DNA of 64,000 nt from Thunnus maccoyii (lineage: Eukaryota > Chordata > Actinopteri > Scombriformes > Scombridae), in the NCBI RefSeq assembly GCF_910596095.1, contig NC_056538.1, forward strand, positions 18,586,501 to 18,650,500. The letters are read 5' to 3'. A model generated the notes under the pieces. It made no database searches and had not been told where the DNA came from. It saw only the letters and a list, made by a program, of their open reading frames with translations. A program made the translations under genes and the position numbers. Below, piece after piece: positions 2,363 to 35,532 of the stretch (position 1 is the first letter of the stretch; each line of letters begins with the position of its first letter).

Positions 2363-5300
2363 TCACGGTAGGATCAAGTCACCTCCTCGGCACAGACAGC
2401 CACAGCAGGCTCTTGGTGGAGCTGCCGAGTGGAGCAGCCAGATTGCCCGGCGACGGTAGGCCAGCCACACCAGCAGCAGTGTAACTGTGACAAGAGAGGA
2501 GCCGACCACCAGGCTGACGATGACCAGAACCAGGTCCAGCTCTGATGGGTCTGAAAATCAAACAGACGAATAATGTGTCATGAGGTTACAGTCATGATTT
2601 GATTGTGCACTAAAACACTGTTTTCCATCTGCCTTCACTGCATTCAAATGTTTTTGATAATGTGTAGACTAACTTTACATGACAAACCTGTGAAGAGCTG
2701 TATGGCACAAACACCATTTAGCGATATAGCTCTTTTCCTCAATTGCTATAGATAAATGGCATGGTCATCTTTCATTTCCTGTTCTGCAGCATCTCTCGTG
2801 CATGCTCTGCTATCTCAGATCGATCGTTTTTGTTTTAAGGCACAGCTAATAATTACCTATATCCTTCGGGAAGGTAGAATTCTGCACTTCTTTCAACATG
2901 GGACCAAAGGATATGCGATTCCTGAGATTGGTGACAATAGCCTCTGGACCCTCTAAGGGAAATGCACTCCTCTGCTGAAGGCACTGCTATAAAAAGACAA
3001 GGGAAATATGTAGCATGTGAGAATGAAAAATGATAGAGTGGCTAAGAGGTAATTAAGTTTTTGGAAGAAGGATGGTGTTCCTGTTTATTATCAAAGACAG
3101 TGGAGAACAATGCACAGAAACAGTAATTGAAATAAAACAGGTGCACCTCTCTGATAAATATGTCTAAAACCTGTTTTCCTTTGTGGTATTTTTTTTCTGG
3201 ATAAAAGGGAAGGGGAAGATGCATGTATTTCAAACAGAGAGCTGGAAACAGGATTTTAGTTTGAGAGCAACACTATGTCTTTTAATCTAAGCAGCCCACT
3301 CTGAGCTTGCACAGTTCAAACATGGTAGTTGAGGTATAATGTATAGCTCTTATGTAAATGAAATGTTCCAGAAAAATATTAAGCATGACATCAAGTGCTA
3401 AGAAAGAAACCATTTTTTTCAAAGAAAGAGGGAAAAAGTGAACGCCGTACTTAGACGCAGCTTGCAATCCTGTTTGAGTCATGCATTTTAGGCATCAGTA
3501 AGTCAAGTGCAAACACCTATCATGTATTTTAACTGACCCACTGCAAAAAAAATTGCTGGTCTTTAAGAAGCTTGCAATACTACAATAACAAACATGATGA
3601 GACTCTAGGAACATTACTGTTGAGAGCTGTTGAAGAACTCTACAAAGGCAGACATCAGAATGAGTCTCCAGAGTTTATCCTCTGCTTCACCTCCGCCCTC
3701 TAACACGTACTTGTCAGATGACTCACTTTTTCCCATTAAATCAAAAGCCTCATTCCCACAACAACAGGAGACAGCAGTTGGTATCAGAGCATCAGCATCC
3801 GTTGTTACTCTGCAAGTTTTATTCTGTAACTTTTCAAAGACCTTATCTGACCTTCAGTTTGCATAATGACATGATAAATATTTTAGACTATGTGTGTTTG
3901 GCTGTCAGCCTCACTTCAGTAGTCCTTTTTCAGTACATCTCACTCTTTCCACATTTAGAAAACACTTCTTACACCTATGGCAGGATATTTATTTATTTTT
4001 TATTTATTTATATCAGACTACACTCCCCCCACTCCCCTCTTTTCACTTCTGATCCAGGAAAATAATTTATCCTCTTGCTTGCAAACAATCCTTCCTCTCC
4101 TCTGTTTTTCATCACATATGGAGTCATTTACCTCTTCACCAGTTGCACACTCACCTTGCTCACCCTTCTTTCTCGGATCCCCAGCCCATTTACACCTGCC
4201 TGTTCGCTCCTCGTCTGTCTCTCTGTTTTCACAGTGTCACACCCCGCGTCACAAAATTTAAATCACTCTCAGCTGCTCATTCTCTCATCCACTCGCATTC
4301 ATTACAGCCACTGCAGTCTTACCCTTTCACAGTCAGAGTGGTTTCTCAGGCAGACACTGAGATCACAGTGTAGGTACACTACTGAGTAATTAATCATTTG
4401 GAAGAGACTGATGGTGAAGCTGGCACTGGTTGACAGGGCACTGGGCAGCAGCGTGATCCCAGCTGGCTGTGCTGCTAACCTGAGGCACCAACACAAACAC
4501 ACAATAAAACCTTAGCAGTCATTTCATTTCCCCTCAAATGAAACTGTAAAATGCTTAGGGAAAATGTTAAAACTGAGAATATCCTGCAGGTAAAGTCTTC
4601 ATACAGAGCTGCACTGATCAATAAACATGAAAGCAGAAAAAAACACAGACCAGCTTGCTATCAATATTTTAAATTGAATTGAGCTGAAAGCTTAAGAGAA
4701 AAGAAATCATGTTAGGTAAAGGTCAGCTTTCCCTTAGTATCATTACTCATGTTGCATAATGTTAATAATATATGTGTAACTTGAATTCAGCATTATCATT
4801 TATTTAAATCGATAGACCTGAAAGGGGGCTCGAGCCCCTGCCCATTTGGCCTCTGAGAGAGAAAATGTCCCTTTTGTGGGGTGTTTTTTTTTTTTTTTAA
4901 TAAATAAATTCCTGTTATTCCTGCTACTTCCAGCGTTTCTGAGTGTAGCTGACAGATAATTTATATTAGATGGCCTATATGTTAGTTTTAATAGTTTACC
5001 ATAAGGTAAAGTGATTGTAGTTGAAAGAACTCAGTAGTAGTTATACATTTGTGAAAAGGGTTTGCATCTTTATCCCCCACAAGCTACAAAATAACAACAA
5101 TATGATACATTTAAGAAATACAACAAAATTAAGCACATTTGCCTCCTTTCTGTAACAAGCAGCCAATGAGGTGCATTCAATGTTAACTAAGTTAATCTGA
5201 GTTTCTAGTGTCAAATTGATCTGCATTAACTATACTCAGCAGTGATGTTGCCATTGTGTTTGTGTTGTTAATGTCAGAAATTAAAGTAACACCTAGTGTA

Positions 5301-8300
5301 TGATTACATGTACAGTGAGCATATATATTTCCTTTCTTTGTATTTTATGTGTTATCTTTGTTCAACAGGTGAATATCTGAGTAAAGACAGTGGATCCACC
5401 TATATTTACATGAATGTTGAATGTTAAATGTTTACTAAATGTCATTATATATTTAGGAAAATGGTTAAATTCAAGCACTCTTTTCAGTATTTTTGGAGGG
5501 AGGGAGCGAGGGAAGAGATGAAGGAATGTTAACTGTTAAAATCTTTTATAAACTAGTGTCTAATACACCTGATCTAAAGCTAATGTGTTGCTTTTTAGAA
5601 TTGTGGCTTAAATGCATGAAGTCTCAGTATTATGATATGATATGTGAATTATATTAAACTAATTTGTTGGTACATAGTAATAGTATCTTAGCCATACAAT
5701 ATCAGCATCTTCTTATTGCCCATATTTACTGAAGCAGTTATGCCCTCTATGGAGAGGTGGTAAGAGACGAATATAGAGGCGAGAGAGGCAGCCATGCAGC
5801 CAGAGAAAGTATATCCTTGTCAGCAGTTTTAAGCCGAACTTCTGCAAGTGAGGATGTCAGTCAGAGGGCTACAGTGGGTAAGAGTTGGGCTGGTTAACAT
5901 GTGAGGAGAATTTACTGAAATATACTTCATTTCTTTGCATGTATCATCAATTAACTGTCATGTAGCAGCGTTTGAACCAACCTCAGTCATGGGTTTGTTT
6001 TAAAACATACATTTTGATATCAATGTCGCAAAAGTAGTCATTCTGAGCATATATTTATTTATTTGCAAAAATCGCCTTTTATGAATTTGGGCCTCTGCCC
6101 CTCTAACATCCTGTGCACAGTTTTGATTAACAAGTAGTGATTTGCTGTAAATGTGCATTTATGACCACTAGCCTCCGCTTTAAAACAATGCAAGCATGAC
6201 GATAGAGAAACAAGCCTATCTGTCTGTAGAGTTGTCTTTAGTGTTTGACAAACATTAGCAAAATAACTGATGACAAAACACATTAAGAACTGCATTGATT
6301 GCACAGACGGGGGCATCCTCATTAGACAAACTACTTCAGAAAACACCAGAGAACACCAGTGGCAGCTAACGATTGTGCGGTAATTATTAAAAAGTCCACT
6401 GAAAGCGCTGCATTTTCCATATACGTCACACAGATGTTTATGGGCTTAATGAATGAACAAATTAATGAATTATCATTATTTACATTGTCCTTTTTACAGC
6501 AGAGCCATCTCTAAGACACATTGCAAACACACACTAAAACAGGCAATGTTGTCTGTTTAACAGGCATGTGTCATATGAGGAAAATGTAGGCTGTGCCTCA
6601 GCCTCACACTCAGGATGATAGTGAAGATGAAAATGAAGACATAGATGACTAGAAGAGTTGATTCAGTAGATTCACATGATGGGAGCAAAGTGATTCACAT
6701 GTTTAGTTATTTTAGAGTTATTTTTGGCATAGGTTTATTTTATAAATAATTTAAAACCAATACATAGCCTAGATGAGACATGGGATTAAAAACATGCTCA
6801 CTCTTCAAATAACCTTGTGTATTTTTGTTGAATAAGAGTGCATTTATATTTCTAATAAAAGAATACATTAACCATCTTTGTGGCATGCCTTGATAAACCT
6901 TACAGTGAAAGTGTCAATAAATAAATAAAGATTAATAAATAAGGTCAAATGATTCTTAACTACAAAAGTTCTGATCAGTCAGGAATATGCTGGTTTTAAA
7001 CAGCTAGTTACAGACTGTGTGGGCTAGAAGCCTATTTCTCCTTTACAATAATTCATTACATGTTTACAATCGGTAGGCAAACTCATTAAAATATGCAATA
7101 ATTAAGATCAGTTCATATGATGGAGTAGTGGCTACTCCATATCTTTGTGGAAAGCCCTGCTATTCACATTTGACATATTTTAGAATTTGTTTATTCATTC
7201 ATACCGCTCCCTCTCTAACTCTGCAGGAGTACGTTGAATTTCTACCCATCTGAGTGAAGCTGGTTCACAGTGATAACAACCATCAACCTACAGCAGTCCT
7301 CTGTTTACTGAGCAGATAATATTCTGCTTTTAAAAATGTACCTGCAACTCTAAGCATTGATATGAATTATGCCCACAATGTTTTTCTCGTAAACATGTTT
7401 GTAAGGCATTACAGTCCAGCAAGGTTGTATTAAGGCTGTTACAAAGGTTGAAGACCTGCATTATTCATGGATGTGTTTTTATATGTTTATAAAAAACAAA
7501 AGTCAGGATTTTACCATTTTCTTTGAAAACCTCAATGCAAGGTCTACCATATGATGCAGCATATGAAAGAAAAATATTGCAAAACCCCTGTATTTGCTGA
7601 CTCTGCTCATCTTCATTCAGCTTTTTTACTACTGAAAAATACATTTTCTAGGCTGCCTTTTTACCTTGAAATGAAAACACATCATAAAAGACTAAAATCT
7701 TTTCCCAGTCACCTACAATATGTGTGGACCCATGAGTATTCCAGACTTTCCTTTGTACCTGGAGAAGAGGCAGCAAGTGGAGCTGGTGAGGTTGGGCTGG
7801 ATGGTGGGGGACAGACAACAGGAGGTGACCTCAAGGTTTATCTGACTGTTGTTTGTCTTCAGGTTGATAACCACTCTGAGATTCCCCAGGGCAGGCACGG
7901 CATCGCCAGGCTCGACACCTCTCTCCAGGTTCAGACTCATCTCTGCGGTGTAGTTCCCACTGCCACACAGGTCTTCTGAAACTTCTGTTACTCTGGTAAT
8001 AGATTCATATTATTGCAGTTTGCCAGAAAAAAAAACAAGATATGTCTCAGTGAAACTTTACTGAAATGACTCACAATTATTTTCATTATCATTGATTCAT
8101 TTTGTCAATGAATTGATTAAATGTTTTGTCCATAAAATGTCAAAATAGTGAAAAATGCAGATCACAATGTGTGTAAAGCTTAAGATGAGATCATATAATG
8201 TCCTGTTTTTTCTGACCAACTCTCCAAACCTGAAATCTTACTATCACATAAGATGTAGAAAAGCAGCATATCATCACAATTTAGAGGCTGAAACTAGTGA

Positions 8301-11300
8301 CTGCCATTTTTACTTACTAGTACAACACTACAAAGGAGCATTCCAGTGGTTTAACATGTTGTACGCCACGAGCTACATAACAAATTACACGCTTTCCTTT
8401 AATGCTGACTATGGCCCAAAATAGATGGGTTTTAAAAGTTTTAGATTGATGTCATACCTTCCTGGCATTAATTTCTTTTCAATCATTTTGCTGCACTATG
8501 AAAATCGACTTCAGAGAACTGAAACTTGCCTGAGACAGGTAATCCATCACAGTGAACAATTTGACTGTCTGTATCTTTTATCAAAGTTGAGCAGGCACTG
8601 TTCTGAAAACTGTCCTCAAACTCCCCATTGGTGAATTTAAGGATGCTCTTATATCTGACAATTCAGATTTGGCTGCCAAACAGCATCGTCTTCAATGCAA
8701 ACAAGACTCTATATGATGTACAGCCATGCTAGTGGCTCTGTAAGGCTGCAGGCCTACTTATTATTTAGGCACAGCAGTGTTCTGAGCTAAATGCTAAGGT
8801 AATGCTAATATGCTCACAATATCAATGCTAACATGCTGATGTTTAGCAGGTGTAATGTTTAGCATGTTCACCATCTTAGTTTAGTGTATTATGCTGCTAA
8901 TTAGGATCAAACACTATAAACATTATAGCTGAGACTGATGTGAATGTCTTTAGTTTTGCATGTGATTGGTCATAAACCAACACTGGATAAAATTATAAAT
9001 GTGACCTGCTCATAACTGTATTACTATGTGACAATATTAATATAGGAAAAAGTAAACATGACAAAATGTTGTGCTGTGATTACCTGCCCAATAGCATAGT
9101 GTAACTCATGCAAAACCACCAGTAATGGTTCTTTAATGGTAATGTGTAATTAATTGGATACAAGGTAAGATTACCCAGAGAGATATAGATGAGATGAGGC
9201 CCTTCTCCTGTGTTGCAGTCTCAGTAGCTCTGATTCAGACTTCTGCTCCAGCAGTAATAGCCTGTGCCCAGACTCTTGAACTGCCATCTCTCCTTTAACC
9301 ATATTACGAGCTGACCTGTTGGCATTTTGTGCCTCAAATATCTCAGCTTTGGCTGTTCCTCTATTTAATTGCGTTTTTGTATTTTTTTCAGTGAACAGTG
9401 TGTGCTCAGTAGTCTTTTCAGTGGTCTGTACAGTAGTTGCTTCAGGTTCAGATAAAGTGACCTCTGTTGCAATAGCCTCCTGAGTGTCAGAGGTCTCTCT
9501 GTGAGAGTTTCTTTGTGTTTTTTTCTCTACAAACTGAGCCTGCTCAGGTGTCCCACGTCTCGCCAAATGATCTGTTTCAACACGTAATCTCTGTGTTTTT
9601 GTTGAGGGTCCATTTGTCATACTCTTGGCTTTTTTTGTCATAGTCTCATCAACAATGACATGATCAGATTTAGTGGTGACTGGTGAAAGGGCTGTGCTGT
9701 CGAGGTTGGTGGCCTGTGGTGAAGTATTTCCAGGTACAGGACAGTCAGTGCCACAGTTGCCATTCTCTGGTTTTGTGTCAGGAGTCTGCACTGCATTAAA
9801 ATGATCTCCCCCACTATCAGCCTTTGTTTTATACATTCTCTCTCGAGTGGTATGATCAATCTCACCTGCTCCAATTGTTGTTTTAGTGGTCCCACCTGAT
9901 GTAGCACAGCCAATTGTCTTACAGCTGGTTTTATTAATAATCTCTGGAGGCAAGATCCCTGTAGGTGGTACAGAATCAGTCACAGCTCCAAGTATCACTT
10001 GACTTATTGAGGTCTTTTCAGGTAATGTATGCTTCTTATGTTTGTCTGCACTGTCCAGTGTATGTGCTGCAAAAGTCTTTTTAGACAGAGCATAATAAGC
10101 TTCAAAAGCACTCTTTGTTGTCAGAGCTGTTTTGATGTATTTAAATGATGAGCATCCAACTCTTTTAACCACAGTAGGTGTTGTTTCATGTGCCCCTCCA
10201 GCTATGTGGGTAGCCTTTAACACAGATGCTTGAATGCCCAGCTCTGAGTCATTGATAGGACGAATTATTGCAATCATGCCAGGTGGGGCATGCTGGCTTT
10301 GTTCGATAACTTGTCCAGACATTTCATGCTCAGGCTGCTCCACACTCTGTGTTTCTGTTGTGTTTTTTCTTTTCACAGCAGGGGTGAGCTTGCCAATAGT
10401 GGGAGCTGAGGGAGGCTCTCTCAGTGACAAAGCCTCAGTATGACTATTGGAGTGTACCATATGCTCAGCATGTGCAGCCTGAGATGACTTTTCAATAACA
10501 GCTTGCACATTCTCACTAGTGGTCACTGCTGATTCATGAGCTTCTGTGGACACTCTAAGACCGCTTATGCTAGCAGTTGGTGCCAAAGACACATAATCAT
10601 TGGTTCTAGTAGTGGTCATCTGGAATTGAGAGGTAATATTCAATATCCGGTCAGAAATCTGCTGTGTGGATATATTGGGGACCTTAAGGTCAATTCCAAC
10701 AGGCAGAGTGCTGACAGAGCCATGTGGTGTGGAGGGATCATGTTGCTTTTCAGGTGCTTTTGCTGCATGATGCTCCATATCATAAATAGTATTGTTAGTC
10801 ACATCATTAGTCTGTATTTTGGGTATTTCAGGCTGACTGTCTGACTCAACAAATACTGTGGTGCCAGCTTGATCATTTGCATCAAGCACAGGTGTAGCAA
10901 AATCATTTGTAACAGGCGCAACATGCTCATTTGATGCCTGCACAATCTTGTGGGCGGTCTCAAATGCAAATGTGATAGTATTTGTTTCTTTATCACCTTC
11001 TAACTGGGACAGATGATGAATATTTTGGAGGGTTGTTTTCACTGCACTGTTGGACGGGTCACTGTGGTTATTCTTGTTAGTGTTTTTTACCGCTGGTTTC
11101 TCAGTCTGTATTAAAGACAAAGAGTTGAATTCATCAGCGTTATTAGCATGGTATTTACTCCTCCCAATTGTTTGTGCTATAAAAGAGGAACTGTTGTTCT
11201 CATCACTGTTCTCTGCCATTTGCTTTGTGATTGCATCTGAATGTTTCACCGCAAAGGTCACCATAGTTTGCACACTGTCATTCTCCTCAATTTGATTTGT

Positions 11301-14300
11301 CTCATCAGCAGTCCCTAACAAGGACTCAGCATGGGCACGTCCACTATTTGCATATACAGCGTTGGAGTTTGCCCTCAATATTTCTTTTTCTGAGGTTGAT
11401 CTTGTTAGCCTCGTCGGGCTATAGGTGCCAGGTAAACTGTCACCTCCAAACAGCATGAGATTTAGCAGTGGTGACATGCTGCTGAGAGGAAATTGATTGT
11501 TTTTTGCTTTAGGGCTCATTGATGCCATTAGGGTCTGTACAGATCTCTGCTCGTTATCAGCAGCAGGAGCATGCAAAACATCTGAACAGGCTGTCTTCTC
11601 TGACAATTTAAATGAGCACGGCTGGCCTGAAGTCATGTCAAAAGAGGAGGAGGACTGACTTATCTCAGGGGCAGACTGCCCTTGGTGAGGCTGTTGCTGG
11701 CCATTGGACATGTGGGCCTCAGATGACAAGGCTGCTGCTGTGGGTGGCCTGGTAGATGAGTCATTATACATCCGCTGGGACAGATTCACTGAAGTAGATA
11801 TATTTACTTCTTCATTCATGTTTGAGGTTAAATGGTCCTTGACACCGGATTCAAATACATGTGCTGGTATAATGTGTTCCACTCGCTCGCCCTCATTCGT
11901 GGTCCGTAAAAGTGAATTTGGCTCCGAAACTGAAGTACTAAATTTATGCCTGTGATCTGAGATGCTGTAAATAATTGATACATTGAGAGTAGAACTATTT
12001 ACTGTAAAGTGGGGCTTAGCACTCGGCAACCCGCTTGTGATTGCCAATCGTGGGGTGGTGAGTGACAACATATTACTAATACTCTTTAGTTCAGAGTGAG
12101 CTGATTTAGTTTCACTCTGATGTGCAGCAATTGGCTTCAAGGTTCCGTGAAATTTTGAAGTGCTAACTTTAAATGGCTTTGGGTCCGTTTTCGGAATGAC
12201 AGTCACAGAAAATGTAGCCTCAACAACTTTGTTCCGAGTACTTTCTTTAGTAAGTGAAGCCGTTGCCTCACGCGTTGTAAGCATGGCCCTGTGGCTTGAC
12301 GAATGAGGTTTAATTTGTGTGTGTGACTCTTTAAGAAGAGATGTCATTCTTGACACTTCCGGGCTCTCAGATCCCAGAGTTGAGTGTTGTAGTCTGTGAT
12401 TGCTTGTCACTTTGTAGGGAAATGGCATATATTTCATTTCCACTATTTCTGCTTTTTTTTCATCCAGATGAATGCCACTGTGCTCAGTGGCTCCCAACTG
12501 TTTAATCAAACTGTGGCCGGAGGACAGGTTTGTAACAGTGTGCCCTTCATCTCTGTTACGTTCTTTAGAATTAGTAGTATATCCAAAGGGAACATATGTC
12601 GTTTGTTTAATGTCTTCCTTGTTCACTGTAACTTTTCTTCCAGCCTCTTCTCCCTCCTCTGTCAAAGACACTCTCTGCTTTTCAGCTATAGACTCCTCAT
12701 CCTTGGTTATGTTTTCTCCATCTCTGCTGGTATTCTCTGTATTTGTTTCAGTCATACCATTTCTTTTAGCTTTTTCTTTGTCCATTATTTCCACTTGTCT
12801 TAGATCTTCGTCTTTTCGACCTCCATCTTCCTCTCTACTTGTCTTGGCCTCGTGTTGTTTCATTTTGTCCTCCTCTCTGCCTGCATTTTGATTTATCGCT
12901 ATCACAGTAGTAATTATCTTTTCTTGTTTACTGCTTTCAGTCTTATCTGATCTAAGTAATTCCTCTCCTCTGTTCCCCAACTTTTCATCATTCCTTGTCT
13001 CCTGTTTTTGTTGCAACTTTTGTATGTCTTTAATTTCTTTGTCCTCATATTTGGCGACTACAGTCACCATCTGCTCATTTCTATCTCCCAGCTTCAGATT
13101 GTGTACTATTAGTGACTCTCTGATTAAATCCCTGTTATATTTTACAAAAGACTGGGGTGTTGGTGCCACACGGTTATCATTTCCAACATCAAAAGTGATT
13201 TTTGATTGACTCCCTAAAAGTCTGCTCATTGTCAGACTCTCAGAGAATGACTTTGTTGATCGCGTTGTCAACATGGAAACATAATCATCAAAGTCCTGTC
13301 TTGATTCTGAGAGAAACAACTTCCCAGGCACAACGACTTTTTTCATTGTGAAGGTTGGAGTAGGTGTTTTTTCCATAACTGGTATGTTCACCGTTCCTGA
13401 GGGATGAACAGAAGCCTGTTTAATCATGCTGTTTACAGTGCTAGGCGTATGAGGATCTTGCTTATCTGTCAGTTGTCTCACTGTGGTTATAGTTGCAAAT
13501 TTGATGGAAGAATCCCCAGGTAACAAAGTCAATATGGGCTCTTTCTTGTGAGAGCTTGGTTTAACAGGCATTTGGCCACTAAATACAGAGTTCAAAGAAT
13601 CTGCTCTTCCTGTCAGAGAGAGAGATTCAGGATTTTCGACTGCAGAAGTGTTTGGCTTACTAAGTCTGAAGGGTGTAATTACACTATGGGCTTCAATCAA
13701 ACTCATTCTTGTAGTTGGATGTGATGCAGTGCTGTGATCACTACCTTCTGGAAGAACACTTTTCTGACTGTTTTGGGGAGCTTTAGAGATGCCAAGCATA
13801 TTTCTTACAGTGGGACGGTTTGAAGCATCGTTGTTATTCTTACTGAAATAGATTAGTTTTGACTGTGTGTCCCTGATGCTCACCTCTTTACCGAACATCT
13901 CTTGATCTCCATTTTTTACCGATTTCCTTACAGTATAAAGTGACTTTGATGAGTGATAAAGTGCCGTGGTTGTTGAGATCGGTCTCTCTGCAACAAAGGT
14001 TTCACTAGGATAGGTGTGCCCTGATTGTTTCTTGGTGTCTTTTTGTGATTCTGACGATATCTCAGAATGAGGTCGTGTGTCAAACTCAGCTGTTCCTGTA
14101 TCTGAGAAAAAAGATCTGATATGGGAATTAATCAAAGTGCTTTGACTATGATTTACAGTTTTACTGAAGGATGAAGGAGGAAATGTCTGATGGTGAACCA
14201 TTTTTTCCGTCACACTAACACTGGACCGCATGGTAATGTTTTGGTGACTTTTGTCTTTGCTCAGTATTTTTTCTCGTTGTCCAATTGACTGTTGCTGTAA

Positions 14301-16504
14301 ACTCTGTAATGAGGTTGGAAATTGATTGAAATCTAAAGGAAGACTGTCTCTACTAAGAGGGTCTGAGGAGCCATCAGGTGACAGTGGAGGCAGAGCCACA
14401 GGTTTCTCAGTGGACACCTCTCTTCGATCTTTCCGGCAGGTCAAACACAAGTTTGTCATGATGTTTCCTCTTACTGAATCTTCTGCTGTATTGTTTTGGA
14501 AGATGGATGGCAAAGTACTGAACAGATACTCATTTCTTCCAAGGTTTGAAATCCCCTTTTCATCCTTGCCTTGAGATTGTTTTTCATCATTGTCATTACG
14601 CTGCACAGCCAGGTTATCAATTACATGAGGGTGAGGTGTGGGTAGGACAGGAACTCCCAGCCCTCCGTCAGCAGATGTGAGTGTAATAGAGTCAGTGTTT
14701 CTCTGATTCCTGTTATCAAGCAGAGTGTGAAGCCAAAGAGAGGCTTTCACTGCATCTGTGGACAAATGGACCCCTGGCTCGGACGTGCCATTCACCATTG
14801 ATTCAAATGCAGCTTGTGTAGAAGAGAAAACAATCTTCTCATAATTAGAGATCAAGGGGATTTCTGATCCAGTGTGAATCATCATAACTGATGGATTGTC
14901 TCTCATTGATGTGAGAGAGTTTTGCCCAGTTCTGGAAACAAAACGTTCTTTGCTCGGTGAAATTACAGCCAATGCTTTTGTGATATTTGTTCCCTCATAA
15001 GGTGGCACTGGTCTTGTGTCAGACAAGATTGCCCCTGGAAACTTGGCAGTCACTGCCAATGCAGTGTGTCGAAATGTATTCTCTTTAGGTATTGCTTCTG
15101 TGCCATGGCCAATTGTGTTTTCCTTTTTCAAAAGCCAATCTTTTGTGACAGTTGTGCCTTTTATTTGTTCTGTGTGGTAACCTTGGAAATCTTCTTTATT
15201 GGCCCTGACTGCAAACAAAAAAACAAAACATGTCACTCAAATTTCCTCCTGGAAGGCGTCTTTCCTAAAAGTATCAGAGTAAAGATAAATTGAGAATAAC
15301 TAAGACTGTAAATCCATACTGTACCTTCAAATGCACCGTACCACATTTGAGGAGTTCATTATAGTTTTGCATTATTTTCGACATTAACACATTAGTCACA
15401 GTAATTTAAAATGGTTGTGCCAGTGCTATTTGTTAGGTTGCAAGATCCAAATGTTGCAAAATATTTTCAGTTTATTGTGTCCGGCAATAATTATGTTGAT
15501 ACACTGTATGTTGTAGGTAACAGAGGGGCTGATATGTGAATTATGCCAAATAAATATATCAGGATATCCACTGATATTCAACACATATGCAACTTGTGCA
15601 TCACTGGTGGCCCAGAAACTACAGATAGAATTGAGCTTTTAGGTACAATAAATGTATTGTGCATTGTCCTAGTTAACCTGTTAAACAACACTGTCCGATC
15701 CATGGGTACAGCATCACTTATACAGGACCATTTATACTGATTCTGACTTTTTGGTTGTACAGTTTGAAGAGTTGCCTTTCAAGGGAGACCACAGTTATGA
15801 ACAGTAACCTTTTTTTATTTTGGGTACATTATTTTCAGGCTGGTGCACAAAAACAGGAGTGCCTGGCAAGAGGTTAAAATAAATTACATAAAACAATGAT
15901 TTAGTAATAAACCAGTAAAAGAGGAGAAGCTAATGTAAACAATATGGGTTTAAAAAAAAAAATTCTTTAACTTCATGTAAATAGCAGCAGTGATTTTGCA
16001 AATGTTTTATATGATAGAAATGTATTTGACGTTTGTCTAATGCCAAGAAAACTGTTTTTTACAATACAACCTCCACAGTTAGATGGAGATTATTAAATTA
16101 CCTTAAATAATTTGAAATCTGTTGTGGCAGGCACAAAGCTGGGAAAAAAAGTTAATCTGTCACTCTGAGAATGATGTTGACACCGCTTGGTGTGTGATTG
16201 ATGGCTAAGTTAAATGCTTTTACCCTTTTTTGTAGAACTAATATTATTAACATTCTCTAATTAAATGAACTTGTGTAGATAAAATGATCAAAGACAAAGT
16301 ATGAGGTGAAACATGGAAATCATATTACCACTGCTGACTGTCTATCTATCCATCTATCTATCCATCTATCTATCTAAATCAAACATTTAACAGCAGCAGA
16401 AACATAATGGGATTGTACTGTGACGAAAAAATAAACACACACACACACAAAAAAGATTACATACCTGTGAGCAGGAAAAGTGTGAAACAGCAAAGCCTTC
16501 TCAT
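2363..16504 (-). CDS. Giant mucin-like type I membrane protein with a lone ZP-C-type domain (6 exons, 2259 aa)
   Basis: Coding exons on the minus strand, in order: 16504-16465, 15208-9175, 7992-7759, 4479-4323, 2983-2857, 2550-2363. All junctions are GT-AG, every phase matches, and the sum is 6780 nt, or 2259 codons plus stop. Residues 1 to about 16 form a signal peptide (MRRLCCFTLFLLT). Residues 14-2025 come from one huge Ser/Thr-rich exon. Residues about 2030-2198 look like a ZP-C module: an SCCLSP..QPN segment, then VYLHCDLSVC (cysteines 2141 and 2146), then an ISFGPM strand. Residues 2202-2229 are a transmembrane helix, followed by RRR and a 30-residue tail with four cysteines. I see no ZP-N module. 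Known: ZP modules polymerise or bind ligands, and betaglycan, endoglin and TGFBR3L carry related ones. Inference: a heavily O-glycosylated surface protein distantly related to that group. Exon 5 could start 3 nt earlier, at 2986. Identity is uncertain; the gene structure is well supported. Confidence 0.85.
8690..8920. repeat. GCTAA/CATGCTAA-rich interspersed repeat in intron 2 of the ZP-C/mucin gene
   Basis: Repeated GCTAA, CATGCTGATGTTTAGCA and TTTAGCATG phrases within 230 bp. These resemble a common teleost interspersed repeat recalled from general knowledge. Boundaries are approximate. Confidence 0.45.
9175..15208 (-). CDS. Exon 2 of the ZP-C/mucin gene: a 6-kb single exon
   Basis: An uninterrupted reading frame of about 2010 codons. 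It is bounded by a good acceptor (pyrimidine tract, GCAG at 15209) and a GG|GTAATC donor at 9175, with a stop three bases into the intron. The product is rich in Ser, Thr, Asn and Gln and has many N-x-S/T sequons and Thr/Pro patches. It has few cysteines, mostly in short pairs near the C-terminal end. No tandem repeat unit or known globular domain is visible. A strongly charged Lys/Glu/Asp/Arg-rich block (about 12.6-13.06 kb) interrupts the Ser/Thr-rich sequence. The many shorter ORFs on the opposite strand across this interval are antisense shadows. Such length without a stop in AT-rich DNA cannot be chance. Confidence 0.93.
16340..16377. repeat. (ATCT)n tetranucleotide microsatellite
   Basis: About nine imperfect TCTA/TCCA units in intron 1 of the ZP-C/mucin gene. 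A short (AC)n tract follows at about 16435-16450, close to exon 1. Confidence 0.9.
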
Positions 16505-18905: not shown

Positions 18906-20329
18906 AAATGCAGATCTGGCAAACTCCAAATGCAGTCGGACTGTAAACAGACTTTTAAACACAAATGTGTTTATTTGGAGATGATTTGTCCTTCCAGTGC
19001 TGACATCCAGAAAATTCAAATACATATGAAAAGGTAGTTGTAGTTTATCACTTATATACACAGGACTTAACTGCACCTTTCTGGAAGTGAAATCAAAACA
19101 CAAACTAACAGACTAGACATCTAAAGAGCCAAAAAATCTGAGAAATATCAAGGGTGCCAAAAAATAAAAGGCCCCTTTAGGGAGACTCTTTTTATAAAGC
19201 TTATCATTATGGTCATATAGGGCTACAGCTGTTGTGATTGCCAGTAATAGAAGCTGTTAAGCAAGCAGCACACTGCATAATTTGCATTTAACACACTTCT
19301 CCATAATAACTAAGAGAAAGATGGATATATAAGTACCCCTGTGCACAGCCTTAAACCACAGGGACACATTGCCCTAATCCACGTCTCACTTCAAATACCA
19401 TCAATGTGTTAATGCTGCTATATCAACATCAGTCCTTCACAATCCAACAATTACAATATGTGCCAAAAGTATTCAGAACAAATATTTGGATTTATGTTAT
19501 GACTGATATGATATTTGAATCTAATAACACATAAAGATGGTAAAAGTGACTTTACTTACGCCTCCATTCCCACGTCTTGATGGTAATTAAACATATAAAT
19601 TCACATGGGCATGAGAAACAAGGACAGCCAAGAAAGTTGCCATGTTTATGACCTTGTTTATGTAGATTAAGCAATTAGGAGCAGAATTTTATTCAAATGA
19701 AATAAATCTTTGATTAATCTCTAGACAGGCTTAGCTTTCTTTTGTAAAAAACTTCTATAATTTAAAAATGTAATATCAGTTAATTAACCAGTAGTTAATG
19801 ATGAGAGTTCACTATCAGGTCTAGTGAATTTTTATTTTCCCCTAAAACAGAGGACAGAAGAGGACAAGCAGGGAGATTATAAAACATGTTACTGTCACAG
19901 GTTCAAATGATGAGCTTCATACAAGAGTGCAGGATCTCAATGCCATGTAGTTCTTGCAGTTTGTTCACATGTCTGGAAATGAAGAAAACAGGTTTGTCAA
20001 AAAAAAGGGCAGTGACAAGGTCTTCCTGGATTGGCATTCCATTCAAACAACCCTTGTGTGAATTTGTAAACTTGGGAACTAAAGATCTACACCGTCACGG
20101 CAGAGCTCTTTAGCCTGGAGGTTCAGTAAAGATCTTTGTAGGAATACAAGACATGAGACATGTTTGTTGCTTTGGGATACGACAACACAACAATTATACT
20201 CACGTAATTAGAGAGATGCTGTATGAAAGATCACCTACAGCAGCAAAACATCAATTCAATTAAGCATGTGATTACCTTTTATTATACTCAACTTCGAGTG
20301 TAGAAATAAAAGTGTGTTCACACTGACTG

Positions 20330-20600
20330 ATATATTATTATATATGACATCATTCAATTATTAATACTGAAGCATCAGTGTGTAAGCAGCATGTTACTGT
20401 TGTAGCTGCTGGAGGAGGAGCTACTTTGAACTACTTTATATTCACACAGCCTAATAATGTAACTTATACTGTAACAATACTGAACTTAAGGTAAGGGAAG
20501 CTATTTAATGTACACTTGTAGCTGCTGGTCAAATAAATATTGGTTTTCAAGAAACTAAAATATTATCTTTAATATTATTTACTGATGCATTGCATATTCA
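20330..20600. repeat. Degenerate interspersed repeat related in style to the 56.6-kb copy
   Basis: Contains TGTTGTAGCTGCTGGAGGAGGAGCTACTTTGAACTACTTTATA and TAATAATGTAACTTATACTGTAAC. These resemble GGTGGAGCTAATTTTAACAAACTTT and neighbouring phrases at 56.86 kb. Match quality is low. Confidence 0.35.
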
Positions 20601-21531
20601 TTTTAGTTCTAAATTTAAAAGAGCTGAAACAATTCCACAAGTGCACTAATAGGGAAGTCGATAGATGGAAAATTAATCATCAAAAATGCTAAACATTTTC
20701 TGGTTCCAGCTCCTCAAAAATGTGAGGCTTTGTTGCTTCTCTATATCACAGCAAACTTTATATCTTTGGGTTTTAGGCTGTTCGTTAGACAAAACAAGCA
20801 CTTTGAAGACGTCACTTTGGGCATTTTTCACTATCTTGAGACATTTTATAGACAAAACAGTTAATTAATAGAAAAAATAATAAAAATAAAAATAGTTGTT
20901 AATTGCAGCCCTGAAATATATATCCAACAGGTAGCAATGTTTTATTAATCATATTGCCTATGTGGCAATAGCATAAATTGACTAAAATTTGTTGTGATGT
21001 AAGCCCACACCCAAGAACTTAATACTGCAACCCAAACACAAACCCGAGCTGAAATCAACTTTCTATAGTTAAAACTCTCTTGCTCTCTGTCCCTCCTCTT
21101 TCTCTTCCACTCTCTAGACTGCAGAGGGCACAATCTAAAAATGCTATTAGTGCAAAGTGCAGTAAAGACATGACTTGGTCTGCTGCTGGCTATCAGCCTT
21201 TCCATCATGATTAAGCAGTAAACTAAATGCAAATATTAAGAAACAGTCTTCATACTATGACCAAGCATTAGCTTAGTTATCCAATCATCACCCACACAAA
21301 ATGATTCTACAGTAGAGTGGAACATGTGTATAAGAGCAAACAAAAAAAGCTCAAAATAATACTAAAATAAAATCAACTGCATTTTGAATACTGACTTTGA
21401 AGTGTTAATACCAATAACAAACAGTTGAATATTTCAGGCCAGAAGTCACTGAATTTGCTTTATGTGTGACCAACTTCTTAACCAGAGCTATAACATCACA
21501 TTAGCTCATTGTCAGTGTGGCATTTGATCTA

Positions 21532-24500
21532 TCAATGCTCCTTCAGGCTAGTTTCTAGAATGTAATCAACAGCATGTGGTTTATAGAGTGAGGTGAGAGG
21601 GCACCTGGGCTCTGATCGACATAACTTCCCCAGAGCAATCGCTGCATTTTTCTGCACAGCTGTCCTCTTAGCGTCCCCTGCAGCGTGGCGCAGCAGCATC
21701 AGCACAATATCAGTGCCCAGCAGGTTGCTGGCAATTCCCTCCAACTCGAGGCAGTGGGCCAGACACAGGGCTGCATTTCCTGACACCATCTCATCACAGC
21801 TGGAACCCAGCAAATGACGTAAAACAGACAGTTCTGTGTAGAACAATAAATGAATATATGAAAATATATTAACAAACACACATAATGGCATGGAAACACA
21901 CACACATGCATATGATAGTATATACACAAACACATACACTTCATTTGCATATTATGTAAACTCAAATATTATTCATGGGCTTCTAAAAGTAATGTAAACA
22001 TGTCAATCATTTCTTACTTTTATCAGACTTCACTAGCTCCTCCCGTGCCAAGCGACTGGCAGCAGTGCACACTGTCAGAGTCTTAATGGCATACTTAGTG
22101 GCAATCTGCCCTGTTCCCTGGATAGGCAGACAACAAAATGTGTGTGAACATATGTTTGTAAACTCTAACTTTATGTCAGGCACTTAGAGGGCCTAAGAAC
22201 TGACCTGTAAGTGAAATTAGTAAAAATCTTAAGGATATATACACAGTTATTTAAAATGCTGTTTTTTTTTCTTCAAACAAGACTATTGTCATAATACAAT
22301 ACACTAATAGTTTCATTACTAATACTATGATCGCAGAAATATACAGATTTTTTTTAAATGAAATTTATGTAACTTGACCCTTTTCAGGAACTGTGCATAA
22401 ATGTAATGCTGGATACTCAAGCTTCACACCACCCAGAAACAAAATTGCTAACATATTTGGCTCAGGCCTAGTATGGAAGGTAAAACATCTTATGTAACCT
22501 GTTATATTACAAATGACATGCAATTTTATGTCATCTTTAATCATGTCAATCTTTTAAGAGTCCTAAATCCAATTAAAGATGGGCAATAGATTATTTTTCT
22601 ATGAGTATGATAGAATCTCTGAAACTTGGCTGTGTGCACCTTCAGCAGTCTCCTCATGGTCTGGACCACATCCCCCTGAATAACATGCTGAACGGCCTCT
22701 GAGGACTGTGGGAGGACAGTGCTCAACACACCTGTGGCTCTCTGGAGGACAAAGAATTTGTTGGCAATAAAAAAGGAGACAATAGAAGATAAGAGAAAAA
22801 GTAGAAGAAATATAGATGGGAAAACAAAGCGGAGAAATAGACAAGATAGCAGAGAATCACGAAATGACTGCTGGAAGCTAGCAAAGAGAAAAAAGTCAAT
22901 GAAAAGAGACAAGTTGAGACAAAGAGAATGGGAGAGTGTGGCAGGAAAAAGGTGACGAATAGGAAAAGAGACATGAAATGAAATCAGTTGGGGTTATGGA
23001 TTGAGTTTGCAGCAATAAAGGAGAGAAAATGCATTGTAAAGATGGTGAGAGAATGTGTGAAAACCTGTCTGAGTGAATATAAAATTACAGCAACCCTTTC
23101 AAAGACAGAATAATAAAATGAAAGACAAGAACAGGCATAAAATACAATTAGAAAAACATCATACATGGGTGCTTGCTTTGTCTTGCAGGTGGGATCTGTT
23201 GCATCACACATTATCATTGTATACAGTAATTTGAGGACACAATTTAGTAATTTTACACACAAATAAAGTAATTTCAGGGTGTGAAATACTAAATTGGGGG
23301 ACAAAATAACAATATTTAGTTTAGTTGAATGAACAATTTATCAAAAAATCATCCATCTAATGAAACTTGCATTTTAGCCGATGTAGCTGGCAGTTCATCA
23401 TCAGTATTCATAGCAGCAGCAAGTAGCCATTTTCCACAAATTTGCTCTGATTATGTCACTGCTCGCTGCGTGCCTAGCACCAAATGGCAGACAAAAAACA
23501 ATTAGCGAGTAGCTGGTGAAGAAAGTTAAACATCTAAGCTGCTTAAGACAAAAAGAGTTGCTGTAGACCAAATCAGTTACATTTGTCAGGTGGCCAGAAA
23601 CACAGCTCCAATGGAATAATAATGTTCCTCCTTGTCTGCTACATTTGTAAAAAGAGAACAGACTGCTAACATGCTAGCCATAACAACATTTTAAGGAAAT
23701 CATACTGTATGTCAAAACTTATTTTGGAGTTCTTCTGCCCCCTAGTGGACAGTGATTAATACAGCTTTAAATCTTTGGAGAATTTAAATTTAACTGGCAT
23801 GCACATATTGCAAAGTTTGTGCAGTAACACTTCTTCGCTTACACATCTCAGCTCCCAACAACTCCTCTCAACAAAGCCAAACCTACATGTATACAAGACA
23901 AAAAAGAAAACAGAGCTGCATTGATAATTGATACTGAGGGGACACTACAGATTGTGGATTTAGGGATTTGGCTTAACCAATATGATGGATTGCATCATGC
24001 AAGAGAAAAGTAGTGAAGTAAAGTCAATACATTAAAAGAGAAGACAAGAACAGAGAAAAACATTGAGGAAAAAAAAAGGATGTTGATACCAGGCAACAAG
24101 GAAGAAAAAGTGTCAGCTAGGCAGTGAGTGAGCACTAAACAGAGTAAAGAGACAGATGGGTTGGAATGTGGGACTCAAAGGGCATTGCATAGGCAGTGCA
24201 CTAATAGGCATAAGCACAGACAACAGCACCTGCAGCCGGAGTTTTAATCAAATGTAATGACACATATACAGGATCCTCATCATCGTGAATTGCTGGTACC
24301 CTCTTTTGGGACACATTTCCAGCAAGCGCAAAAGCCAAAGAAAAGGCCATTACTAAAGACAAATGTCTTTTATTTTCATCTAGTTAACTGAAAGAATGGC
24401 TTTTGCTTTGGATGCACGCAACTTTGAAAAACAAATAAGAAAAAGTTTTCAGCAAGTCATCTCAACAACTGTAAAAAGTTTTATTTTGCAAACCTCTCTT

Positions 24501-27500
24501 GGTCCAACACAGTCACACATGAAAACCTGATGGGAGTTAGGATACGGTAAAGTCTGATATGGTAGATGTCCTAGTCCTACTACTGATTAAGAATCTTTTT
24601 TCAGCCCTCCTGAGTACTATTGTGTAGTGCTATAGTAAGATTCACTCACAGTTATGACGCCTCCGTCACTATCCTTCAGCAGACTCAGACAGCAGCCACA
24701 GAGTGAAACAGCATGTTCCTACAAAGCAGCAGAGATAATAGTGGCTAAGCCAATTTTCACATATATTTCACCTCTAAATGGGTGACATAACACGTCAGAG
24801 TTCACACAAATGCTCCCACTGCTTCCCTTAATACATATATATATATTTCTTTAACAACATAGTCTACTATATTGAATTCAGTGGTGTGAAGTGGATTTTC
24901 AGTCAAATTCTTTCCAGATGTCCCCAAAACAGAATGACACTTCATCTCGATATTATCATATCAGCAAAAAGTGCAGTGCCCAATATTAAGATAACTCAAG
25001 ATACGCCAGAAATTCATTTCTGAAACAAAAGTACTCATAACATACCCAAGCAGGCATCGCCTGTCTTACCTGGATGACTGGAGAGATGATAGTTGAAAGG
25101 TTGATGATCAAGCCAAGCAAAGGGTAAAGGATTTCTTTGTATCCACATGTACTGCACTGCTTCTGCAATAACAGCCAATAAATTCTACACTGATTAAAAT
25201 GCATACAGTGAGCGCAAACATAATATCCAATATAGACTAATTCCATTATGTCTAACTGTGACATTCACACTATACTGATGAGGTTTTTTTTCAAAGGGAC
25301 GAATCCATAATGATACTAACAATGGCAACCAGAAAGGCCTTCCAACATTCAGGATCATGAGCAAAATTGTGACAGATGACATCATCCCGAGTCAGACAGC
25401 CAATAGCCGATATCAGTGATGGAATGACATGCTGATTGGACTTGTTGATAGTTCTCTGAAAAATTAAGCAAACAGATGTGCACATTTGCTCAGACACACA
25501 CACAAACAAACATATCTTTACATATACAATACATAGTTTATATAAAAATTAATCTACATGTCTTACCAGTGTTGTTGTAAATGGCACAATGACAGCATCT
25601 GTTCTCTTCCTTAACTGAATGCAAAATCTGCAAGAAAATATGAAAAGATTATACAGACACGGTGTACATTGGTATAAACAACAGTATAAATACAGTATGG
25701 ACAATGGCTGAATGTCTCAAATTATACTAATACATACAGGAGTATCATATACAAATTGTTAAGTCAGAATAACCATAAATGTTTGTGCAAGGTAGTGAGT
25801 GAAGTTAAGTTTAATCTTAGTTTGAGTTCTTCACAGCCCAACATGAAACTAGGAAGCAAAACAACTGAGTCAACTGAGCAACTTGAAAGAAACATTTGGA
25901 TGAACCACAAAAGAGGGGACTTCTTCACACAAATGCAAAAAAGTGCAGTAATAAGTAATAAGTGCATCAGACACCACTGTAGACCCATATGGTCTTTTAC
26001 TCCCCAAAATACACTAAATATCAGAGTCATAAAGGACAGTTTACACAGCAATTCAATTAAGTGGTCAAATAGCATTGATTGCCATGTCTCTGAAGATTCA
26101 CACTCATCCACTAAAAACGCAGTAAAAGGCAGATGGATTAGCTGTGACAGCAAGGTCCACTTGCCTTTGACTGAAAACAATAATTGAATATGCTGTATGG
26201 TATATACAGAATGTATATATTGTATAATATACATAAATACCTGTGTGTTTGTGTTTGTGTGTATATACATTCAGACTGTTTTAGTAGTAAAGATTTGTAC
26301 ACCAAAACAAAAAATATCCATTAAAGCGCAACATTGACCCAGCTGAGCTGTTATGATGAAAAGAAAACCTCTGTAGGATATAACACATTTTTGTTGAGTA
26401 ACTCTCTTTGAGCTATAGACAGGGAAAATTGATCTTCCCATTTCACTGCTTGGCACCTCAACTTATTTCCTGCTGTGTTTGAGAGCCTGGGTTGTCCTTT
26501 CATGTCTATTTTCATGAGGCGCCAAAGAGGGAAACAGGTTGAGAACGGCCTTTTGCCTTCAAGTGACATTAACACTTGGATAGCACATGTTGATTTATTA
26601 AAGATGCTGCACTTTCCATTTCTCAGAGGACCTCTCCTGACGTGGGTGGATTTTAAAGTGCTTTTAATATATATGGTTATGATATATGGTAGGATAATAG
26701 ACTGTCCTGTGGCTCATGAATTCTGCAGAGTATCTGAAAATGTGTGTCCTTGTTCGGAAATCAAAATTAATCATTTTGTAGGGACTGAGGAGAATAGCTC
26801 TGGTGTTTTTGTTTGACTGTGTTGTTTCGTAGTAATACTTGTTTTCTGAAGCAAAGTTCTCCAGAATCTTGACCGCTGTGTTGTCCTGCTGCTGCTCGGG
26901 CTTTGAGATGCACACCATGAGGTTCCTCACTAACCTTTAGAGCCAGATTAAGAGTAGAGCAAGATAAAGAAACAGAGAGAGAGAGAAACAGAGAAAGAAA
27001 AAAGAAACATAAAGAAAAAGAGAATCAAGCATTTTGCAAAATGATATGTTCTTAATAAATATCATCAAGATATCAGTTAATATTTGGCACCCAGATAATG
27101 ATGATTTGCGCAATTCTAATAATGCCAAATTGGAGCAACACAATCACTTATTCTTCATAATTGTTTGAAAATCCAATCAGTAGCAACTCAGATATTATCA
27201 CAGGTCACTTAGTATGATTTTAAATTTTTGTAACAGAACAACAATATAAAACATTTCCTGATATCCCATTGAATGAACATGACAACAGGACAACGACTTT
27301 ACTCAAAATGGAAAGCTTTTTACACCAGCTGTGATATTTGCATCAACATAAAGAAATTCTTACATGTGCACATTCAATTTGTCAAGGGCCAAATGTCTCC
27401 CATGTGGCATCTGTGAGTATAAACATAGTAATGCCAGGCATTCTTTCCGTAGTGCAAGATGCTCTGATGTTACCAAGTGAACAAAAGACTCTCTGGATAC

Positions 27501-30500
27501 TGGGCATGTCATCAGCATCTTCTGGTTTTCATCTGAAAGCAAAAGAAAAAGGGGTATGTAAGGATGAGTCATATACTTTGTTGTTGGTATTAACATAATA
27601 TCATTGTGAATAGCTGTAAATAAGTTATCACAGTTGGCACAAATAGATGATGGACTGACAAAAGGGGTTTAAGTAGCACAGCGACAAGCTGTGCAGTAAT
27701 CATACAATGCCATAATAGAAGGTTATACTAGTATTTTTCCTGTATTTTCCTTCCAACTCAAGGAGAGCAAATTGCTACATGGACAAAGACAGAAAATTAA
27801 GTGTAACTCAATTATCTGCATACCATTTTCACAACAAATAACCCTCCATAATTTTAGAACAGACACGCACAAGTCCTGGCTGTGTGGATCCTTTGTTTTC
27901 TGCAACAGGCAACTGTGGAGAAAATAAACAAGGTAGTCTTATCTCTGTCCTCTTCCAACTGACATAAAACAAATCAAATGTGTTGAATAATGATTTTGTT
28001 TTTTTACACAGTACCTGTTACATAGTATCTCAACAAAATGTATGTAAATACAAAAGATGTAACACATGACAAATATCCACAATATTTTTTTTTTTCAAGT
28101 AAGGGTTAATAATACAGACAGAGAGCAATCTATTATTTCATAGGGATATCAAGCAATCTTGCTGCAGCAATGGTCTATTTTTTAGGGACCAAAAGGCACC
28201 CTTTTATAAAGACTTGACGAATAAAGAAGTGTGTGTTAAAGATTGTAGTGCTTTTTGAGTAACAAAGCCACTTGGCCACAATCACAAGTTACAAATTAAT
28301 CACAAGATGCCCTCTGTTATCCCACTAAGGTGAGTGCATTTGACATGCCACTGTTGTCATTGCCCAGAAGAAGTATATATGTGCTGCTACTAGTGGACTA
28401 AATGTTATAGCCTGATTTCTTACCCTAATTTTATCCTTAAAAAGAAAAATGTGTTGCCTTTTTGGGAGACCTATAGGTTTCACACCAAGGGGACACCACT
28501 GATGACTTTTTTAACTTTCAAGCATTCTAGACCTCTCTCCACATTGCCTTTTTGTAACTCTTGATAAAGAATTTAGGCTTTTTACAGTATAGCAGTGCCA
28601 AGAGGACATGAAATCAAAGTGCCCCTTCAGATTTTGATCAAGATTAGCCTTCTTTGCTACATCATAGATGTAGCTCTAGTAGATTTCAGCTGGTAATCTA
28701 TGATATGTCAGGCTCACAGCATTGTCCTAATTGGCTATTTTCATCAAGCTCAGACTGCTTTTTTTTGCCCTCTCTACTTTCAAGACACTGTGTTCTTACC
28801 TAAATAATGACAGTGCTAACAATATACAACATGGAAAGTATGTGACAAGTTAATAATAACCTTACTGATCTGACATGAGGGAGTCATAATTTGTATCTTG
28901 TACAAAACACCCCCTCTTTCTGGGACAAAACACAGTGCCTTTGCTCATTAAAGTCTCCAGTGTGATAATCTTTTCCTCTTTGGGTTATCACACAAACAAC
29001 CAGACAGAGGGAGAGAGAGAGAAAAAAAAGGGGGGGCGGAGAATGATCTCTCTAGTTTAGGCCATCATTGTCTCCGTATCCTCCTGTCTCTGGGTCCATC
29101 TGTCAAAGCTCCACTGAGGCCTGACAGCAACCTCTCCCTCTGGTCTCCTTACCTCCTCACTGTGTCATTGTTGCTGATGATACTAAAGCCATTGTTCAGT
29201 CTGAAAAGGGTCTGGCCAGTACCTGTTAGAAGAGAACAGTAGATAGTGTAAGGAGGCAGAAAACCATATATCATCACCGGGTAGCCTCAAGGTTTTAGAG
29301 AAACATGAAACACCCAACTCTTTTAGTTTAGTTTGCCTTGTTCACTGGTTTGCAGTCAAGGGCATGAGAGAAAATAATAAATAAAATGTGGTGCCAGAGT
29401 GAGGTACAGTGAGGAATGGTCTATTTTCCACTAACAATGAGTTGGAGTATACAGAAAGTAGAACAAGGAAGTGAGGGAGTACTTTTAGGGGAGAAAGCTT
29501 GTAATGTCAGCCCTGCTGAGATCCTTTCAGTTGTGAGTTATGTAAGTTTTGCCCTTTTCCATTGAATGGCACTGTGAGACAGGCATTATATCATTTGACA
29601 GTACACTTTTATTCATCTAAATGAAGAAAAAAAGAGACTGGATAAGAAATGTTTGCCATTCTGCAGAGGACAGCCAGTACAAAGGAATATGGTGTATTAC
29701 AAGTAGTGATGCATGTTGAAACAAGGATAGAGAGCATTACACTATGATGCAAGTTTTTTTTTTTTTTTATAGCTGTATGGTTTGTTGCAACATGCTTAAG
29801 TTTCACCCCATAAATTCCATCAGCCTTGGCTGTGTGATCGAAATACCTCAGCTGATGTTATCCTAGGCCTGTATAAGAGCAGCAATGGGGCAGAGCATGT
29901 CAGAACTACTTCATTAAAGACACCTACTTAGCTGAAATACAACAAAATAGATACTCCTGAGAGGGCAAATTACCTTGCTGAATTGTACTGTTAGGCTGTT
30001 TTACAAAACCTGTGAAGTCTGCCTTTTGGCAATAGCTAAAAAATAGTTATTTTAGTGGTGTGGAGTTTCAAAGTCATTTGTTGGGTCAAAAACATTCACA
30101 AAAATATCAGCAGCTGACAGAGGAGGGGTGAACAACCTGATGAAGAGCAACTGCTGCCTCCAAGTTTCTACAATTACCCCTTTTCATAAAGGACTTGGTA
30201 AACAAATACTGTATCAGATACTTTTCAACCTGATGCCATCATTATAAAATGGGTGCATGAGGTGAAATATCTTGTGCCCGACAAATTTCCCACTTTGACA
30301 CAAAATTACAATGCTTAATCTGTGCCAAGAAGAAATTAGGGCTGTAAGGGCATTTTCTCACTTAACCTGTTAAATTCAGTTCACTTGAAACCGCATGCAA
30401 CAAGCACTGTGCTAGAATCAAGCTAAAACAATCACATTTGATTTGTCTCATGCAACTATTTCCCTTGTCATGTTATGGTATGGGATGTGTTGTCTCCACT

Positions 30501-35454: not shown

Positions 35455-35532
<78 letters not shown>

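Follow-up and report, generated by a model that had tools for sequence, protein, structure and literature searches.

Gene structure

The window analysed here is a 64,000-nt stretch of the Thunnus maccoyii genome (NC_056538.1, 18,586,501-18,650,500), and all coordinates below are window positions. On its minus strand, at 16504-2363, lies a real fish gene, as yet without a name, whose product is a very long protein of the cell surface. As read from its sequence, this conserved gene encodes a type I membrane-like protein: a signal peptide is followed by a long Ser/Thr-enriched ectodomain, one membrane-proximal ZP-C of the egg-coat type, the transmembrane helix and a tail of short length. Its features are as follows:

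16465..16504, minus strand: exon 1, start codon and signal peptide (MRRLCCFTLFLLTV..); the relatives P0004 and P0018 begin similarly
9175..15208, minus strand: exon 2 (6034 bp), Ser/Thr-enriched ectodomain of ~2010 residues, unmatched by Pfam and containing 9 Cys and 26 N-glycosylation sequons
7759..7992, minus strand: exon 3, linker-like strand and first half of the ZP-C (..SCCLSP..STCCLFS)
4323..4479, minus strand: exon 4, second half of the ZP-C (FTISLFQMINYSVVYLHCDLSVC..DCER)
2857..2986, minus strand: exon 5, final Cys of the CxxxC pair, possible monobasic cleavage Arg and EHP-like strand NRISFGP
2363..2550, minus strand: exon 6, transmembrane helix, RRR, short Cys-rich tail and stop codon
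2106..2111, minus strand: AATAAA polyadenylation-signal-like hexamer, ~250 bases past the stop

Joined, the six exons give a product of 2260 aa with zero internal stops, compatible phases and GT..AG boundaries at 5/5 introns, confirming the coordinates and phase-matched six-exon model of an earlier sequence-only reading of this DNA. The length of 2259 residues given there was right to within one residue, the difference probably reflecting the other choice at the acceptor of exon 5, which is of the NAGNAG type (..ATAG-CAG-TGC); relatives exist with and without the resulting Gln. Exon 2 lies within a single open frame of 2021 codons (9171-15236), and a chance open reading frame is ruled out by the probability of ~2e-60 for an open run of 2011 codons at the GC content of the window. 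Two alternative exon-3 acceptors were discarded as out of frame.

The ZP-C starts in exon 3, whose linker-like strand carries a Cys invariant across nine aligned fish, and has its last strand in exon 5, ahead of the transmembrane exon 6. A hydrophobic helix at ~2203-2227 of the product is followed by RRR and the Cys-rich tail. The signal peptide was called by eye, and the transmembrane helix by hydropathy and an AlphaFold helix.

Relatives and distribution

The exon-2 product and the ZP part were searched separately, as the sequence-only reading had proposed. The former returned 22 proteins, ranging from Thunnus albacares LOC122983408 (99% identity) down to 35% identity. The ZP region of a Dicentrarchus labrax protein (P0004) retrieved 19 long proteins, including those of Oncorhynchus, cyprinids, Astyanax ('mucin-5AC-like'), Albula and Acipenser, and a ZP-only profile (E<=1) retrieved 47, including models from Rhea, Pogoniulus, Gekko, Alligator, Mycteria, Pitangus and Prinia. 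P0004, a separate LOC model of 2283 aa, has the same order of signal peptide, giant exon, ZP-C, transmembrane helix and tail, so that the layout described earlier recurs. Fish relatives share this overall design as far as sturgeon.

The bird, crocodile and gecko models have the ZP-C-membrane part in common with the fish gene, with 82-198 residues ahead of the ZP-C in the five sauropsid models measured. The gene is therefore not fish-specific, and the fish-specific origin put forward in the sequence-only reading was rejected on these sauropsid relatives. In a 24-row tree a branch with full support separates the six sauropsids from the other rows; 9/21 inner branches are unresolved. No mammalian names occur in the 19- and 47-row lists, in which names are incomplete, and proteins of ~400-1250 aa fall outside the ZP-part search; loss of the gene in mammals is for these reasons only a suggestion. 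The database labels 'mucin-5AC-like', 'uromodulin-like 1', 'transforming growth factor-beta receptor type 3-like' and 'serine-rich adhesin for platelets' conceal one family. Among open-licence papers we recognised no study describing this gene.

The ectodomain

The exon-2 product is 22.6% Ser+Thr and 5.3% Pro (together 27.9%), with 23% Lys+Arg+Asp+Glu and 2 Trp; its richest 100-aa window holds 35 Ser/Thr, and Ser+Thr ranges from 21.4 to 25.8% across the ectodomains of seven relatives. The Ser/Thr enrichment implied by the earlier term "mucin-like" thus stands, and the label itself is weak. Neither tandem repeats in exon 2 nor self-similarity in its product was found, so a tandem-repeat mucin, with PTS-rich repeats, was discarded and the ectodomain is better described as Ser/Thr-enriched than as a classical mucin. 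Based on charge-hydropathy, 52% of its 100-aa windows are disordered. A Pfam scan of exon 2 gave no match; the Orphan domain of betaglycan and endoglin was unmatched too, in a scan with no control for that domain.

Sixteen percomorph-type rows align along the ectodomain, with islands of conservation. More distant ectodomains align with that of Dicentrarchus in parts: two blocks in Oncorhynchus, the first 280 residues in Megalobrama, the last 70 residues in Astyanax and, weakly, Acipenser (19%). Among the complete fish models compared, ectodomain length is ~1080-2060 residues, with 1084 aa in Megalobrama and 2056 in Dicentrarchus. Between tuna and Dicentrarchus, identity is 64% in exon 2 and 94% from the ZP-C to the tail. 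Four Cys fall within 110 residues of exon 2 in the window protein. Separately, residues 1802-1863 of P0004 (exon 2) hold two close Cys pairs, conserved in 13-14/16 aligned rows, within an ectodomain that is otherwise poor in Cys.

The ZP-C domain and its kin

The product of exons 3-6 matches PF00100 (ZP-C) with an E value of 7e-8. This domain is present in 14/14 long relatives and is the sole family above cut-off in the 14 long and seven short members, that of the short P0068 being below cut-off. The exon-4 half was compared with 26 distinct ZP-Cs of the same genome, and the two best scores (104 and 103) belong to alpha-tectorin-like genes, presumably TECTA, the next being 74; a betaglycan-like ZP-C ranks tenth. 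In the AlphaFold prediction suggested in the sequence-only reading, the fold of the ZP part best matches the uromodulin precursor by Foldseek, with 8dc0 second. An earlier AlphaFold model was of insufficient quality to stand by itself; its Foldseek list placed uromodulin first and betaglycan eighth.

The EHP-like motif is found in 47/54 relatives matching a stricter core, the other seven leaving frame past exon 4. A C-x2/3-C pattern is present in 45/54, the match in P0061 being a different pair, and an Arg stands four residues past the last ZP-C Cys in 35/54.

Polymerisation features

According to PMC7737619, a ZP-C within the uromodulin filament accommodates the ZP-N of a second molecule through its FXF motif and a pocket formed by Y520, D532, T534 and Q551. 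In the window ZP-C these four residues are replaced by T, P, G and S, and FXF by FQM. A census of 84 proteins, 56 of them with a readable site, found FXF in 0/56 (FQM 50, FQL 2, FRM 2, FQR 1, SQM 1). By contrast, 23/26 other ZP-Cs of the genome have FXF at this site (24 by a looser any-FXF count); the exceptions are L012, which is betaglycan-like, and a pair of near-twins, L033 and L040.

No ZP-N was matched by Pfam in the product or 14 relatives, and the same scan missed two ZP-N controls, a tectorin-like ZP-N exon and a complete ZP protein of the same genome. Since Pfam is blind to ZP-N, the Cys count of the ectodomain is what bears on the question, and the five distant fish checked have 1-2 Cys at most per ectodomain. 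It is unlikely that exon 2 conceals a ZP-N.

These features bear on the alternative of a polymerising matrix protein, whose ZP-C would join filaments with the ZP-N of another ZP protein after cleavage and loss of the EHP. Alpha-tectorin is a matrix protein, and its relatives are the nearest paralogues here, while the fold is nearest the uromodulin precursor. The frequencies of the EHP-like strand and of the Arg agree with this alternative, the Arg lying near the position of the uromodulin cleavage site RFRS (PMC4755741). Set against it are the missing FXF at all 56 readable sites, the four differing residues of the pocket for an incoming ZP-N, the lack of a recognisable ZP-N of its own and an Arg that is not conserved in birds or Alligator. 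We regard co-filament formation as unlikely.

Residues of the TGF-beta co-receptors

The sequence-only reading had compared the protein with TGF-beta co-receptors. On this alternative the lone ZP-C would bind inhibin or TGF-beta in the manner of betaglycan or TGFBR3L, the ectodomain being a mere stalk. The overall plan is that of TGFBR3L, which crosses the membrane once and is similar to the C-terminal ZP region of TGFBR3 (PMC7795056), and the betaglycan ZP-C alone binds inhibin A, as reported in PMC11865472. TGFBR3 scores 28.2 bits in ZP-C alignment, near the 30.4 bits of uromodulin; the second Foldseek place of 8dc0, the lack of FXF in the betaglycan-like gene and one bird model labelled TGF-beta receptor type 3-like are further points in its favour. 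However, only 2/10 alignable betaglycan contact residues, as named in the same source (PMC11865472), are kept (P71 and I161). D72, E81, N82, K86, L156, D157, A158 and T159 correspond to N, F, S, A, E, G, P and E, where L156-I161 lie in a weakly aligned FG loop and D88 falls in an insert. No mammalian protein named TGFBR3L occurs among the 47 ZP-profile rows, from a search in which most proteins are nameless and candidates must share words. With betaglycan tenth among the ZP-Cs of its own genome and tectorin-like genes nearest, a co-receptor role appears weakly founded and quite improbable. Taken as a whole, the earlier interpretation is partly supported.

Neighbouring genes and other features of the window

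Upstream of the gene lies one further multi-exon feature:

19924..36262, minus strand: TPR- and HEAT-like gene that has a separate stop, an AATAAA lying shortly past its last exon

This neighbour, which we take to be TTC12, ends ~3.3 kb before exon 1. Downstream, within the 9.5 kb that precede the window, exons on the same strand cover most of the kinase end of a Scomber prediction (P0002) at 86-96% identity, with one edge piece at 56%. The kinase is presumably of the ANKK1 type, placing the gene between TTC12 and an ANKK1-type kinase in its own genome.

A further alternative is a wrong or merged gene model, in which exon 2 and the ZP exons come from separate genes or the whole extends TTC12. 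Many fish models comprise the ZP exons only, some being called isoform X2; the Scomber (P0002) and Albula (P0034) predicted proteins fuse TTC12 with the ZP-C gene, and P0005 and P0018 end exactly at the end of exon 2. As the exon-2 donor is GTAA in phase 2, retention of the intron brings an immediate stop; this accounts for the models ending there, and we take the two fusions to be merged models or read-through. Against a merged model, P0004, P0026 and the cyprinid P0029-P0031 combine signal peptide, exon 2 and ZP-C, and the exon-2/exon-3 junction (LSG-V or LSG-F/L) recurs from sturgeon to tuna. Extension of TTC12 was rejected because that gene terminates within the window at a separate stop and AATAAA. 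We consider this alternative very improbable.

A GT just before the TTC12 stop (19924-19974) agrees in phase with the exon-2 acceptor (15208), so read-through splicing is possible. P0039, isoform X2 of Epinephelus fuscoguttatus, is a short form without exons 1 and 2 and with its own possible signal-like start; the corresponding stretch of intron 2 in the window has a stop in that frame. A second ZP gene lies nearby, with a ZP-C exon (C6:18682076-18682249) on the same strand ~31.6 kb past the right window end and a normal FRF.

Elsewhere in the window, a tandem duplication (49316-50902 and 52252-53824, ~2.9 kb apart) has four blocks 93-97% identical; an open reading frame of the first copy (50079-50396, plus strand) has a CD225/IFITM-type match (5e-10), and the copies are maybe a dispanin/IFITM-like pair. 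A LINE-type element with endonuclease and reverse-transcriptase matches occupies 44129-45533, and scans of the window for tRNAs and Rfam families gave no match.

A proposed non-polymerising ZP-C at the membrane

Our preferred explanation, to which we give about an even chance of being right in its entirety, is a non-polymerising, membrane-tethered glycoprotein with a ZP-C acting alone, in which the ZP-C would be the functionally constant part and the long ectodomain the drifting one. We infer the function of the protein as follows. The ectodomain would be mostly disordered, carry N- and O-glycans and stand as a brush on the cell surface, probably that of apical epithelium. The ZP-C may have descended from matrix-forming ZP proteins on the tectorin/uromodulin side, and would stay closed and precursor-like, with the EHP-like NRISFGP as its last strand. 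Uromodulin-type filaments would not form, because a recognisable ZP-N and the FXF motif are both missing and all four residues of the pocket for ZP-N differ. Instead, the ZP-C could work solo as a membrane-side dock for apical matrix, as reported for the LET-653 ZPc, or for some ligand, and in ray-finned fish the Arg past its last Cys could serve as a shedding site.

It is possible, though we would lean against it, that these proteins constitute a separate vertebrate class of ZP-C-only receptors, which ray-finned fish and sauropsids possess and mammals have perhaps lost. In this class a tectorin-type ZP-C would have dropped polymerisation (FXF becoming a nearly fixed FQM, with CC..CC pairs added) and taken on a new binding task below a giant glycosylated brush. 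Proteins with only a ZPc were once thought not to exist, according to PMC7665627. A lone ZP-C so conserved between tuna and sea bass, beside a drifting 2000-residue ectodomain, is a natural system for studying ZP-C without ZP-N.

Comparison with known systems

UMODL1, the label on many fish and some bird models, carries WAP, EMI, SEA and FN3 domains. The ZP-C is common to both, and none of these other domains was found by Pfam in the 14 long or seven short family members. The alpha-tectorin-like genes of the same genome combine NIDO, VWD, C8 and TIL with ZP-C exons, of which the second half scores best against ours. They differ in their large VWD-type ectodomain with many Cys and in the presence of FXF; NIDO and VWD/C8/TIL are absent from exon 2 and the 14 relatives by the same Pfam library that found them in the tectorin-like L043 and L044, and the kinship concerns one short exon, its place in the tree being unresolved.

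Uromodulin and GP2 share the EHP-type last strand and CxxxC features with the family ZP-C. Unlike these GPI-anchored proteins, the window protein has a hydrophobic helix, RRR and a tail, extra CC..CC pairs and a giant ectodomain; it lacks a recognisable ZP-N, and EGF and D8C families were matched by Pfam neither in it nor in 14 relatives. The teleost uromodulin/GP2-like cluster described in PMC11415648 is a different one.

TGFBR3L and betaglycan resemble the window protein in their membrane-proximal ZP-C, single transmembrane helix and short tail, and the betaglycan-like gene of this genome also lacks FXF, whereas the window protein keeps the EHP-like strand and has another Cys pattern and a ~2000-residue ectodomain. 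In C. elegans, the ZPc of LET-653 is reported to function without ZPn and five ZPc-only proteins are predicted (PMC7665627). LET-653 itself has a ZPn, and the likeness concerns the proposed solo action of the ZP-C.

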